From an uncultured Porphyromonadaceae bacterium (GTDB taxonomy: Bacteria; Bacteroidota; Bacteroidia; Bacteroidales; Muribaculaceae), in the NCBI GenBank assembly GCA_947175665.1, contig CAMWNR010000013.1, forward strand, positions 1 to 32,702: a stretch of 32,702 nt of DNA. Reading direction: 5' to 3'. This document shows positions 1 through 30,588 of this stretch, one piece after another (within the stretch, counting starts at the first letter, position 1; each line of letters starts with the position of its first letter). A program made the position numbers and the translations under genes. The notes under the pieces were generated by a model that was not told where the DNA came from, did not search any database, and saw nothing but the letters and a program-made list of their open reading frames with translations.

Positions 1-41
1 ATAAAATTTCATAATATCGTTTAATTTTCATTACTTACTTA
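1..41. repeat. Right end of a foldback (MITE-like) element, cut by the window edge
   Basis: The last 31 bases match the right ends of the two complete 194-bp elements at 9842-10035 and 30395-30588, including the terminal inverted repeat that closes with CATTACTTACTTA. The left part lies outside the window. A contig that begins inside a multi-copy repeat is what a short-read assembly would produce. Confidence 0.8.
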
Positions 42-9841: not shown

Positions 9842-10035
9842 TAAGTAAGTAATTAAAATTAATGTATATATAAAACTTCAATATTTTTGAGATAATTTCC
9901 ATGCGGAGGGAAGGAAGATACTTTGTATCTGATTGACCGACAATTGGAAATTAGCCAAAAAGATTAAGTTTTATTACACAAGATATTCATTTCCACTAAC
10001 TTCCATAATATCGTTTAATTTTCATTACTTACTTA
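9842..10035. repeat. Foldback (MITE-like) element, complete copy 1
   Basis: A 194-bp element with 21-bp terminal inverted repeats that differ at one position (TAAGTAAGTAAT/G then AAAATTAA). Inside, 9871-9901 (TAAAACTT to TTTCCA) and 9945-9973 are inverted copies with few mismatches, and a small hairpin, AGATA (9916) with TATCT (9926), sits near the centre. The whole unit is thus a near palindrome. It encodes no protein. A second copy of the same length is at 30395-30588 and a partial one at 1-41. In the rest of the gap 9711-10313 I see only AT-rich DNA and a possible promoter. Confidence 0.85.
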
Positions 10036-10313: not shown

Positions 10314-11384
10314 CTATTGAGGATAAGATATGATTAGAACTTCTTTTGATTTTTTATCACTCAACACATATTTTATATCTTGAGAGAAGCGCAACTCATT
10401 GTATCTTCCTTTGCTTTCCAACAGATGAGTCAAAGATTCAATTGAAGGTATGCCATTTGAACGATATGAAAATACCATGATACTATTTTGAAACTTTTCA
10501 ATTAATTGGTTGAATCCTGCCATAATATTATCCTTATCAGTCCAAATGCTATATTCTCGTTTAAGCCTATGATGCTTACTGTTATAATCAATCAGATTTG
10601 ACCAATTGTCGTAGTTTACCAAACCATTTAGAAAATGGTAAAAATCAGCATAATCAACACCTACGCCTTTTTCATTAATATAGGGAGTGTCTATGTATAC
10701 TAAATCATAGTCGCTATCTATGGTCAAGGCATCTTTTCTTAATACACGACATTTTTTCCCATTATCAAAAACCGCTCGATTTGCCTCTTCAACAAAGGAT
10801 CTGAAATGAGTTTCAAATGGAGTATCCCAGGTCTTTTTATTCCCAAAAGATCGTTTTACGTCAATAAGACGGACATACAAATTTTTCCTATGAAATAAAT
10901 TATAAGGCCTCTTTATTATACAAGATTGAAATAATGCAAACCAAGCAATAGCACGCTTATATTCATTTTCTATCTTTGAAATATTATACCTCACTCTATC
11001 CAGCCAATGGTTTTCTTCATCTGTATAATATATATCCTTAAAATTATCTGCTATAAATGTAGGATAGTCAATATTAGGATGGTTGGCTAATATAAAATCC
11101 ACCTCCGAATGATTTAATAAGGTGGAGTTGTTCTCAATTAAGGCTTTTCCTATAATAGAATTAAAAGGTAATATATCATTGTATGTTACCGACTTGCCTT
11201 GATCTTTTAACTTATAGGCCACACACCCGGTACCACCGAAGGCATCTAAGGCTGTATTAAACGGAATGTCTGAAATTTCATTCCAAATCCAATCTACAAA
11301 TTTTGCCTTACTACCTTGATATCTTGTAGAGGGAAATTTGTTACTTATGGGAATTTCAATTTCCGAAAACAATGAGGGTTGCAT
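10314..11384 (-). CDS. Type II DNA adenine-N6 methyltransferase (partner of EcoRV-like nuclease)
   Basis: A 356-aa D12-class (alpha-order) DNA adenine methyltransferase. RYQGSKAKF (21-29) opens the SAM-binding region, DAFGGTG (47-53) is motif I, and VYIDTPY (229-235) is motif IV, here DTPY instead of the common DPPY. Its start overlaps the nuclease stop by one base (TAATG), so translation is probably coupled. Within the pair its role is to protect host sites from the nuclease; from the partner the site would be GATATC, methylated at adenine. It is not close in sequence to what I recall of M.EcoRV. The gene is clearly AT-richer than its neighbours, suggesting transfer. I see no strong terminator behind it. 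Confidence 0.9.
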   Translation of the reverse strand: MQPSLFSEIEIPISNKFPSTRYQGSKAKFVDWIWNEISDIPFNTALDAFGGTGCVAYKLKDQGKSVTYNDILPFNSIIGKALIENNSTLLNHSEVDFILANHPNIDYPTFIADNFKDIYYTDEENHWLDRVRYNISKIENEYKRAIAWFALFQSCIIKRPYNLFHRKNLYVRLIDVKRSFGNKKTWDTPFETHFRSFVEEANRAVFDNGKKCRVLRKDALTIDSDYDLVYIDTPYINEKGVGVDYADFYHFLNGLVNYDNWSNLIDYNSKHHRLKREYSIWTDKDNIMAGFNQLIEKFQNSIMVFSYRSNGIPSIESLTHLLESKGRYNELRFSQDIKYVLSDKKSKEVLIISYPQ

Positions 11385-12163
11385 TAGTTTAAATTCCTGA
11401 ATTTCTTATAAGATTCCAAATCGTTATAATATGGTTTAGCAAGTTCTGCTTTCTTAGCCATATCCGGTGTCAGATAATTTATCCAATAATCATCAAAAAT
11501 TTCTTCACCTAATTCAGAGAAAACACCGTTGCCTGCAATTAAGTCATCTATCAAAGATATTGATCCTATATTCTTGGTATTACCACTTCCAGGTTTATCT
11601 GTTGCTATTTTCCATTTTTCTTGAACAAAGAATATTATATCTTTAACGACAGATATAATTTCATCAAGATTATCAAGGGTATATAACTTGAATTCATCGG
11701 AAATCTTATCGTTTTCCGTATAAATAAACCCTAATACAATATGTGCTTTATATGAGGAATAGGGATATGTTACATTTTTTAGACTTTGGCGATTGCGGAA
11801 ATATCCTGTATATGCACCGAGTGTCATTCCATTAATTCGCTTCGCTGTTTTGCGATAACTACTTTTAATATCTACAGCAAATAGATTCCCCTCCTTGTCG
11901 ATAAAGGTAATATCGGGATAGTAGTTTTGCTCTTTGGTGAGTTCTAACTGAAGTTCATTGTCCTTGGCAAATATATATAAAAGAGGGAAAATATATAGTT
12001 CAATAATTTTTGAGATAACCTTTGTATCAGTTGATATAGTGTAAATGTGCTTATATATATCTATAAAACCTTTAACCACCCATTGACCGTCTTGGGTTGA
12101 GACAAATGGTGTGAATTCCTTTACAGCATTACTTAATTTTGAGATAAACTCTTCTTTTGTCAT
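11384..12163 (-). CDS. EcoRV-like type II restriction endonuclease
   Basis: A 259-aa PD-(D/E)xK nuclease. The start MTKEEF at 12163 was chosen over an upstream in-frame ATG at 12196 because a consensus promoter lies between them and EcoRV begins near this point. Conserved with EcoRV in order: TDTKVISKIIEL (45-56, Glu55 matching Glu45), EQNYYPD (78-84, Asp84 matching Asp74), VDIK (97-100, matching Asp90 and Lys92), GAYTGYFRN (116-124, R-strand region) and GSGNTKNIGS (192-201), the loop that reads the outer bases in EcoRV. Since the active site and the recognition loop are both kept, GATATC with blunt cleavage is the likely specificity. The nuclease gene precedes the methylase gene, with no controller gene seen. 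Confidence 0.92.
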   Translation of the reverse strand: MTKEEFISKLSNAVKEFTPFVSTQDGQWVVKGFIDIYKHIYTISTDTKVISKIIELYIFPLLYIFAKDNELQLELTKEQNYYPDITFIDKEGNLFAVDIKSSYRKTAKRINGMTLGAYTGYFRNRQSLKNVTYPYSSYKAHIVLGFIYTENDKISDEFKLYTLDNLDEIISVVKDIIFFVQEKWKIATDKPGSGNTKNIGSISLIDDLIAGNGVFSELGEEIFDDYWINYLTPDMAKKAELAKPYYNDLESYKKFRNLN

Positions 12164-12167
12164 AAAG

Positions 12168-12199
12168 CAAAGATACAAATTATAATTGAAATGCACAAA
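12168..12199 (-). promoter_or_regulatory. Promoter of the restriction-modification pair
   Basis: Minus strand TTTG (12196-12199), exactly 20 bases, TATCTTTG (12168-12175), a full match to the Bacteroidetes consensus. Only four bases separate the -7 box from the ATG at 12163, so the mRNA would be leaderless or nearly so. Confidence 0.7.
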
Positions 12200-29331: not shown

Positions 29332-29348
29332 TAAATCAGAAGTAAGTA

Positions 29349-30401
29349 ATGAAAATTGCAAATATAGATTTAGGATCAAAGCCGGTTATGCTCGCTCCGA
29401 TGGAAGATGTGACAGATGAGTCATTTCGCCTTATATGCCGCGAGCAGGGCGCTTCACTGGTGTATACTGAGTTTGTATCGGCAGAAGCCTTGATACGAGA
29501 CATCAGATCTACTACCCGCAAACTGAATGTATTGCCGGCCGAACGCCCCGTAGCCATTCAGATATATGGCCGTAATGCAGAGGCTATGGTAGAGGCCGCC
29601 AAAATTGTGGAGCAGGCTCAACCTGATATTCTCGATATAAATTTCGGTTGTCCTGTAAAGAAAGTTGCACACAAAGGTGCCGGAGCAGGTATGCTGCGCG
29701 ATATACCCAAACTCCTCGACATCACCTCGCGTGTGGTGAAGGCTGTTAACATACCCGTGACTGTAAAAACCAGACTCGGCTGGGATCACGAAAATAAAAT
29801 TATCACCGATCTTGGCCCTGCCCTGCAGGATTGCGGCATAAAGGCTCTTACCGTACACGGACGTACAAGATCACAAATGTATACCGGAGAGGCTGATTGG
29901 ACTCTGATAGGTGAATTGAAAAATGATCCGCGTATGGAAATACCGGTTATCGGCAACGGTGATATCACCACCCCTCAAGGCGCTGCAGAGGCCTTCGAAA
30001 AATATGGGGTAGACGGCATTATGGTAGGAAGAGCATCCTTCGGTCAGCCCTGGTTATTCCGCGAGATACGCCAATATCTCGACACCGGCAAAATCACACC
30101 TACCCCGCTTGAAGAAAAATTTAATCTCCTCATACGCCAGATCACCGAGAGTATTGACCGCATTGATGAATACCGGGGTATTCTTCATATACGTCGCCAT
30201 CTCGCCGCATCTCCCCTCTTCAAGGGTATACCGGACTTCCGTCAGACAAGAATCAAGATGCTGAGAGTAACCAAATTTGCCGAACTGCTCGACATTCTAA
30301 AGCAGACCCGCGATTTATTGCAACTTTCAGCAACCCAATCCGAAAACACTTACGGCTCCGATGATGTTAAATATATGGATAGTAACCTCGAGGCTAAGTA
30401 A
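29349..30401 (+). CDS. dusB: tRNA-dihydrouridine synthase (DusB-like)
   Basis: A 350-aa FMN enzyme that reduces uridine to dihydrouridine in tRNA D loops. It has a TIM-barrel N-terminal part with LAPMEDVTDESFR (15-27), the catalytic cysteine in INFGCPVKKV (Cys101), TVKTRLGWD, VHGRTR and GNGDI/VGRASFGQPW for flavin and phosphate binding, and a helical C-terminal domain. The last codons (GCT AAG TAA) run into the foldback element that starts at 30395: its end supplies the T of Ala, the Lys codon and the stop. The final 20 residues are not conserved, so function is probably unharmed. Confidence 0.92.
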   Translation: MKIANIDLGSKPVMLAPMEDVTDESFRLICREQGASLVYTEFVSAEALIRDIRSTTRKLNVLPAERPVAIQIYGRNAEAMVEAAKIVEQAQPDILDINFGCPVKKVAHKGAGAGMLRDIPKLLDITSRVVKAVNIPVTVKTRLGWDHENKIITDLGPALQDCGIKALTVHGRTRSQMYTGEADWTLIGELKNDPRMEIPVIGNGDITTPQGAAEAFEKYGVDGIMVGRASFGQPWLFREIRQYLDTGKITPTPLEEKFNLLIRQITESIDRIDEYRGILHIRRHLAASPLFKGIPDFRQTRIKMLRVTKFAELLDILKQTRDLLQLSATQSENTYGSDDVKYMDSNLEAK

Positions 30402-30588
30402 GTAATTAAAATTAATGTGCATAGAAAACTTCAATATTTTTGAGATAATTTCCATGCAGAGCGAAGGAAGATACTTTGTATCTGACTGAGTAATAATTGG
30501 AAATTAGCCAAAAAGATTAAGTTTTATTGCACAAGATATTCTATTACTACTTACTTTTTAATATCGTTTAATTTTCATTACTTACTTA
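30395..30588. repeat. Foldback (MITE-like) element, complete copy 2
   Basis: 194 bp, the same length and orientation as copy 1, with the same 21-bp terminal inverted repeats, inner palindromic arms and central AGATA/TATCT hairpin. Differences from copy 1 cluster in the loop side and the outer right arm. At one position in the outer arm, C on the left with its partner G in this copy is T with A in copy 1, so pairing is kept. It overlaps the last seven bases of dusB. The remaining 96 bases before the next gene hold nothing I recognise. Confidence 0.85.

Follow-up and report, generated by a model that had tools for sequence, protein, structure and literature searches.

A 194-bp foldback mobile element is present in two complete copies and one truncated copy in the window, the 32,702-nucleotide stretch of DNA analysed here, which is the complete contig C13 of G000, a genome of 2.33 Mb in 166 contigs (99.2% complete). 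Selection acts on one strand of this element in its folded, single-stranded form, be it RNA or single-stranded DNA (ssDNA), and with a probability of roughly 0.8 the element is a MITE of the IS630/Tc1-mariner type that is moved in trans and has a selected three-way fold. As a mobile element it is of a familiar kind, an IS630-type MITE resembling RUP, the repeat unit of pneumococcus, and is new as a family within the searches described below; the surprising part is the conserved, strand-specific interior.

Copies, ends and insertion sites

The foldback family proposed in an earlier note on this DNA is real, and in the window it comprises two copies of equal length and a partial end. Copy 1 extends over positions 9842..10035 of the + strand, with a TA at each end that is counted as the target duplication on the strength of empty sites found for two further copies, and scores 167.8 bits with a covariance model in whose construction it was included. 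Its terminal inverted repeats, TAAGTAAGTAATTAAAATTAA (9842..9862, +) and TAAGTAAGTAATGAAAATTAA (10015..10035, -), correspond to the 5' and 3' arms of stem P1 and are identical at 20 of 21 positions, as the note had stated. Copy 2, also complete, lies at 30395..30588 (+). The third copy is represented by its last 41 bases at 1..41 (+, model positions 154-194), truncated by the contig edge, and since the window is the whole contig, the assembly begins within a copy; bases 4-41 show 95% identity to the final 38 bases of copy 1, and the fragment scores just 21.9 bits (E 0.056) with the covariance model. No ORF of 80 aa or more lies inside the element, and a 91-aa ORF starting with TTG overlaps its right half.

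The left end of copy 2 (30395-30401) supplies the stop codon, at 30399-30401, of the Dus gene located at 29349-30401, and several further copies reach 3-11 nt into the end of the frame upstream of them. An 18-nt match to the element end, without the TA, occurs at the Dus start codon (29340..29357, +); it received no covariance-model call and may be a relic or a chance resemblance. Elsewhere in the window, an EcoRV-like restriction endonuclease (PF09233, E 1.6e-108) and a D12-class adenine methyltransferase adjoin copy 1 (10314-12196), and a SAM-II riboswitch (295-353) is found upstream of the S-adenosylmethionine synthetase gene (597-1931).

Across G000, BLAST gave at least 57 rows, at least 30 of them covering 190 or more of the 194 positions (40 of 145 candidates scored), and the element ends were matched 160 times at up to two mismatches, against 0 for the reversed pattern used as control. 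As several contigs begin or finish inside a copy, the copy number in this genome is a lower bound. Both ends were read in 28 copies from G000, nearly all of which start with TAAGTA and end with TACTTA between unrelated flanks; in a few, an end base is mutated or missing. Beyond the TA, duplication was no greater than in shuffles (131 flank pairs).

Duplication of the TA was seen at two empty sites. For the first, the copy L166 (CAMWRH010000023) was compared with the genome G496 (DKWX), which has a single TA at the junction; the alignment, TCAA[TA..TA]TCAACC against TCAA-TA-TCGACC, has 84% identity over 313 nt. For the second, the copy L004 of G000 was compared with L227 (JAAVDV010000001), which again has one TA, in a less clean alignment; three more candidate pairs examined beside it were not decisive. 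The joined-flank test gave a junction-spanning match in another genome for one of eight, and L248 has an element-free counterpart in G497 at a junction too diverged to read.

Recent activity was detected in the related genome G540, where, among 14 copies picked for equal or near-equal scores, seven are identical over 196 bp at seven different sites and five further copies are identical to one another; six copies picked in the same way from G504 all differ. The genome-wide copies, the exact ends and the burst in G540 exclude that only the window copies exist or that all derive from segmental duplication without boundaries of their own. In addition, G000 contains 18 shorter forms of 42-125 bp that keep both ends, some of them base-changed (23 pairs inspected), and several are without the P2 hairpin described below; these would be remnants left by decay of the full-length unit.

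Of the options left by the earlier note, a MITE, an invertible segment or a structured RNA, the first is borne out by the element's own boundaries, the TA duplication at two empty sites, the recent burst in a relative and the matching ends of IS630 elements of the genus detailed below. An invertible segment or recombinase site can practically be dismissed. Inverted repeats are indeed present at both ends and one copy from G000 (L028, 1501-1690) carries its centre in the opposite orientation to that of the other copies, but the element exists as dozens of dispersed copies at unrelated sites, in both orientations and with empty sites, and L028 was, by reading, the only centre-inverted one of 30 aligned copies from this genome (two of them partial), L030 having an altered centre. 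The note's interpretation thus stands as regards the MITE and the structural selection described next, and finds no support as regards the invertible segment.

Selection on the folded form of one strand

Copy 1 has a folding energy of -48.7 kcal/mol, whereas shuffled sequences gave -26.2 kcal/mol (sd 3.5), none of the 200 folding as well (z -6.5), and copy 2 gave z -6.6, in agreement with the foldback interior reported previously. The predicted fold is a conserved three-way one, in which the ends form P1, P2 is a long stem capped by a hairpin with tandem GA mismatches, and a side hairpin whose loop is free makes up P3. The conserved core hairpin is located at 9903..9943 (+) and contains three tandem GA/GA mismatch sets spaced by 2-bp pairs, while P3 (GATATT/AATATC) is located at 9982..10012 (+) with a variable 19-nt loop (9988-10006). 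This loop is the variable part of the element, with a minority frequency of 0.170 compared with 0.025 elsewhere (26 copies from G000).

Paired changes between the window copies, one of which had led the note to suspect selection on structure, are real: they are found at element positions 26/135 (T-A in copy 1, C-G in copy 2) and 68/96 (G-C in copy 1, C-G in copy 2). Positions 25/136 are a counter-example, being G-C in copy 2 but A.C in copy 1.

For an alignment of many copies, 137 distinct elements were extracted; no ends could be extracted for 55 core hits, and identical or N-containing copies were skipped uncounted. Six of the 137 elements, longer than 204 nt and by reading carrying nested inserts, were omitted, and the remaining 131 were reduced to 49 at <90% identity, of which 46 entered the alignment A2, made with MAFFT; the structure was derived from it with RNAalifold. 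Over the 60 consensus pairs, 94.6% of the cells are paired, compared with 76.6% in shuffles and 35.9-45.9% in slid controls. Two-sided changes occur in 39 of the 60 pairs (29.3 in shuffles), and covariation is 0.463 compared with 0.153. None of 500 shuffles reached the paired-cell, two-sided or covariation value, a result to be read with the caveat that kinship among sequences can push values above such shuffles without structure and that the structure came from the same alignment. Within G000 alone, two-sided changes are found in 6 of 68 pairs.

On the + strand, the 46 copies contain 147 G.U against 35 A.C combinations. With RNA parameters this strand folds better in 46 of the 49 elements and worse in three, and with DNA parameters it folds better in 47 and worse in none. 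The core follows the pattern GA-NN-GA-AG-GA-stem-GA-CT-GA-NN-GA, whose GA/GA sets are retained in 43, 43 and 40 of the 46 copies, with 0 complementary alternatives. Of the 46 copies, 42 pair at the AG/CT step and 37 at the NN/NN step, where many combinations occur; among 26 copies from G000 the NN/NN step is GC/GT in 22, GG/CC in two, AG/CT in one and GG/CT in one. Taken together, the covariation, the G.U bias, the strand preference and the kept GA/GA sets show that selection acts on one strand in its single-stranded fold, and the two-sided changes, G.U excess and kept GA/GA sets support selection on structure far more strongly than the one paired change had implied.

The arms of a palindrome can be homogenised, and the fold might accordingly be a by-product, the arms correcting each other through template switching at the hairpin and structure being under no selection. 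The inverted centre of L028 and the altered centre of L030 would fit such a process, as would several P2 deletions, which point to activity of the hairpin during replication. Arm correction would, however, turn the GA/GA sets complementary, which was seen in 0 of 46 copies at any of the three, and it would yield neither the 147 to 35 ratio of G.U to A.C nor a fold kept with other end sequences, as found beyond the genus. This explanation is therefore unlikely, and selection on the folded strand is preferred.

The orientation of the flanking genes bears on whom the fold serves. For the 112 scored copies, the flanks are same/same in 36, opposite/opposite in 36, divergent in 20, convergent in nine and one-sided in 11; this even overall orientation indicates no fixed relation to transcription. 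A cis-acting RNA useful to the host, such as a terminator, an mRNA stability element or a riboregulator, which was disseminated by transposition and retained because of its influence on nearby genes, would be consistent with the absence of any of the 112 copies from ORFs of 90 aa or more (simple ORF caller), with the many copies placed a few bases away from start or stop codons, and with the flanks of the copies in G000, co-directional in 14 and opposite in three. Effects on neighbouring mRNAs are reported for ERIC and Correia RNAs in the available text of two papers (PMC2229807, PMC10969869). The 36 same/same and 36 opposite/opposite flanks over all 112 copies stand against this explanation, which appears improbable. 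Given the even orientation and the amplification of full-length copies in G540, we think instead that the fold most likely acts for the element and not for the host, as RNA or as ssDNA extruded in replication or transposition. Structured RNA, the remaining option of the earlier note, is possible, as is structured ssDNA, the data fitting both.

Some repeat copies carry, nested within them at several different positions and in both orientations, a second palindromic sequence of about 46 bp, TTGAAAATCGACGAGTTTCC...GACGAGTCAA. Its carriers are L116, L117, L120, L122-L124 and L126-L128 (G012, G030), and also L173, L186, L240 and L251.

IS630 elements with matching ends

DDE_3 transposases were found in 13 of 61 genomes searched, and a narrower IS630 query gave matches, several of them fragmentary or distant, in 25 of 111 genomes of the genus. 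No DDE_3/IS630 transposase was detected in G000 by either search, and no IS630 in G540, the genome with the burst. Presence of the element is not associated with IS630: it occurs in 18 of the 25 genomes with a match to the IS630 query and in 68 of the 86 without, five rows of this comparison being inferred from tallies. The absence from G000 and G540 and the lack of association count against the IS630 reading.

In a first scan of 15 DDE_3 loci, ends of the type seen in the repeat were recognised in L092 alone, and an ORF-centred rescan of 30 loci disclosed them for L316-L320, L338, L340 and the deleted copy L322; none were resolved for L314 and the rest, and L093 and L320 are the same place. 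The DDE_3 frames measure 345 aa (L314) and 363 aa (L316). Five proteins were checked for DDE_3, of which the entries for L318 and L338 were wrong-strand ORFs and gave no match; L318, from Muribaculaceae bacterium Isolate-036 (G499, RIAY01), has a 357-aa open frame.

Eight IS630 copies of the genus (L316-L320, L338, L340 and L092) have TAAGTA or TAAGTG at both termini, TA flanks being a requirement of the end search. Compared with the ends found in 20 repeats, each agrees at best in 22-25 of 27 bases, whereas 2000 shuffled ends reached 19 at most; a register 4 nt further out was taken for its TAAGTA start in five of the eight (L317-L320, L340), so that this part of the match is selected and not blind. 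The same subterminal sequence is also present in the IS630 copies and the repeats, and two IS end types, ATTAATGTACAT and TTAATTTATAC, parallel two repeat end types, ATTAATGAACA and TTAATTTATAC. A transposase with matching ends, as sought by the earlier note, is thus available in the genus and was not found in the window's genome. The IS630 elements differ from the repeat in being 1.1 kb long and transposase-encoding, and the folded core has no counterpart in those searched (the four loci L092, L314, L316 and L318), where the best match inside the IS copies is 9.4 bits; a 61-bit core match in L092 sits outside the IS.

An autonomous copy was also sought through end pairs in 20 stretches from G012 and G014. 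Facing ends around a long ORF were encountered in L281 only, and this candidate was rejected, the ORF being a MatE flanked on each side by a separate partial end. None of the six proteins searched, which came from five of these stretches, is a transposase.

Since the IS630 ends match those of the repeat, the latter is best read as an IS630-type MITE moved in trans. A DDE transposase of an IS630-family element, present now or formerly in the lineage, would recognise the TAAGTA... ends, move the unit, presumably in trans, and insert it at a TA, which would be duplicated. The parts of this scheme that were observed are the ends, the TA duplication at two sites, the match to IS630 ends of the genus and the recent burst. 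Movement as ssDNA by an HUH or other structure-specific enzyme, with IS630-like ends that are coincidental or secondary, would accord with the selection of one folded strand, with the preference of DNA parameters for the same strand and with the Saprospiraceae units described below, which have the same fold and different ends. Both the TA duplication at the two empty sites and the end identity of 22-25 of 27 fit a DDE enzyme of the IS630 type instead, which leaves ssDNA movement improbable.

Of known repeats likened by description, RUP is an IS630-Spn1-linked MITE of 107 bp with about 100 intergenic copies, and resembles the IS630-type MITE reported here in its small size, intergenic location, TA target and IS630-like ends (PMC2229807, PMC3049150); it belongs to another host, and a strand-specific core is not among the features described in the available text of these papers. 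Its fold was predicted from 30 copies in one genome (PMC3049150), and the words covariation and compensatory are absent from the main text of that paper. ERIC/IRU and Correia/NEMIS, likened in the same way, are small, with inverted repeats, a terminal TA and transcripts that fold (PMC2229807), but their hosts are enterobacteria and Neisseria, and a tandem-GA core is not described in the available text.

Distribution and the fold beyond the genus

The search of related genomes suggested by the earlier note found the family widely in the genus. BLAST detected it in 14 of 101 genomes and the covariance model R1, at E <=1e-4, in 86 of 111 genomes of the genus, own genome included in both counts. 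Applied to 247 genomes drawn from the order, R1 gave five: G000, two genomes of other genera in its family, and two more that each come from a different further family. In nine elements from the four non-genus genomes the same strand gives the better fold, by 13-30 kcal/mol; both elements of G587 have different end sequences (AAGGT...).

A scan of named genomes with the exact core pattern returned at least 109 stretches, and nearly all of the matches listed are MAG records, with titles such as Bacteroidales, Bacteroides, Porphyromonadaceae, Muribaculaceae, Prevotella or Barnesiella. The same pattern gave 0 matches in 395 genomes of the phylum; it was judged too strict because it also misses G000, and the covariance model was used instead. 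Plasmids and phages gave no match by blastn with a window copy, nor did viral contigs with the exact core pattern, one that the window copies themselves fail. No match over the element was obtained in Rfam 15 at the gathering threshold, and at E <=5 ten loci gave one weak match, touching only the last three bases of a copy. A literature search found no paper on this repeat.

A Saprospiraceae contig (L179), which was among the stretches from the scan of named genomes, contains a 182-bp unit with ends GGGCACTTCTAAATACTCC, which R1, built without such a sequence, matches over the full model with 42 bits (E 1.5e-5, 63 kb searched). A second unit of the same genome has the ends and the core in common with the first, and scores just 18 bits with R1 (E 0.26). 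The Saprospiraceae units have the same core, other ends and no TA duplication, which weighs against the IS630 reading. The second unit (L266 1302-1515, G495) has an extra hairpin in the 5' side of its core that resembles the nested inserts of Muribaculaceae.

The usual view of MITEs is that they are left over from deletions and that their interiors can drift freely. In the present element, selection on one folded strand preserves the interior, in the genus and beyond it, with ends that differ. Tentatively, and with rather more doubt than conviction, the three-way fold with its tandem-GA hairpin may be an ancient mobile-element module of Bacteroidota, an RNA or ssDNA signal that the element needs and that is carried between different terminal repeats; the ends would then be those of IS630 in Muribaculaceae and unrelated ones in Saprospiraceae and family f135. 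If so, the MITEs in question would be vehicles of a conserved structured cargo and not mere IS deletion remnants. The question raised is why an element without a transposase requires a fold. It is open to testing in Isolate-036 (RIAY01, a record not titled MAG), since an IS630 copy and the repeat, with 21 matches, are present there together.

Some contigs that bear the repeat (L154, L155, L164, L178, L211 and L253) are MAG contigs titled Paenibacillus sp. NALB_7961_12, a title that probably reflects a mislabelled bin.
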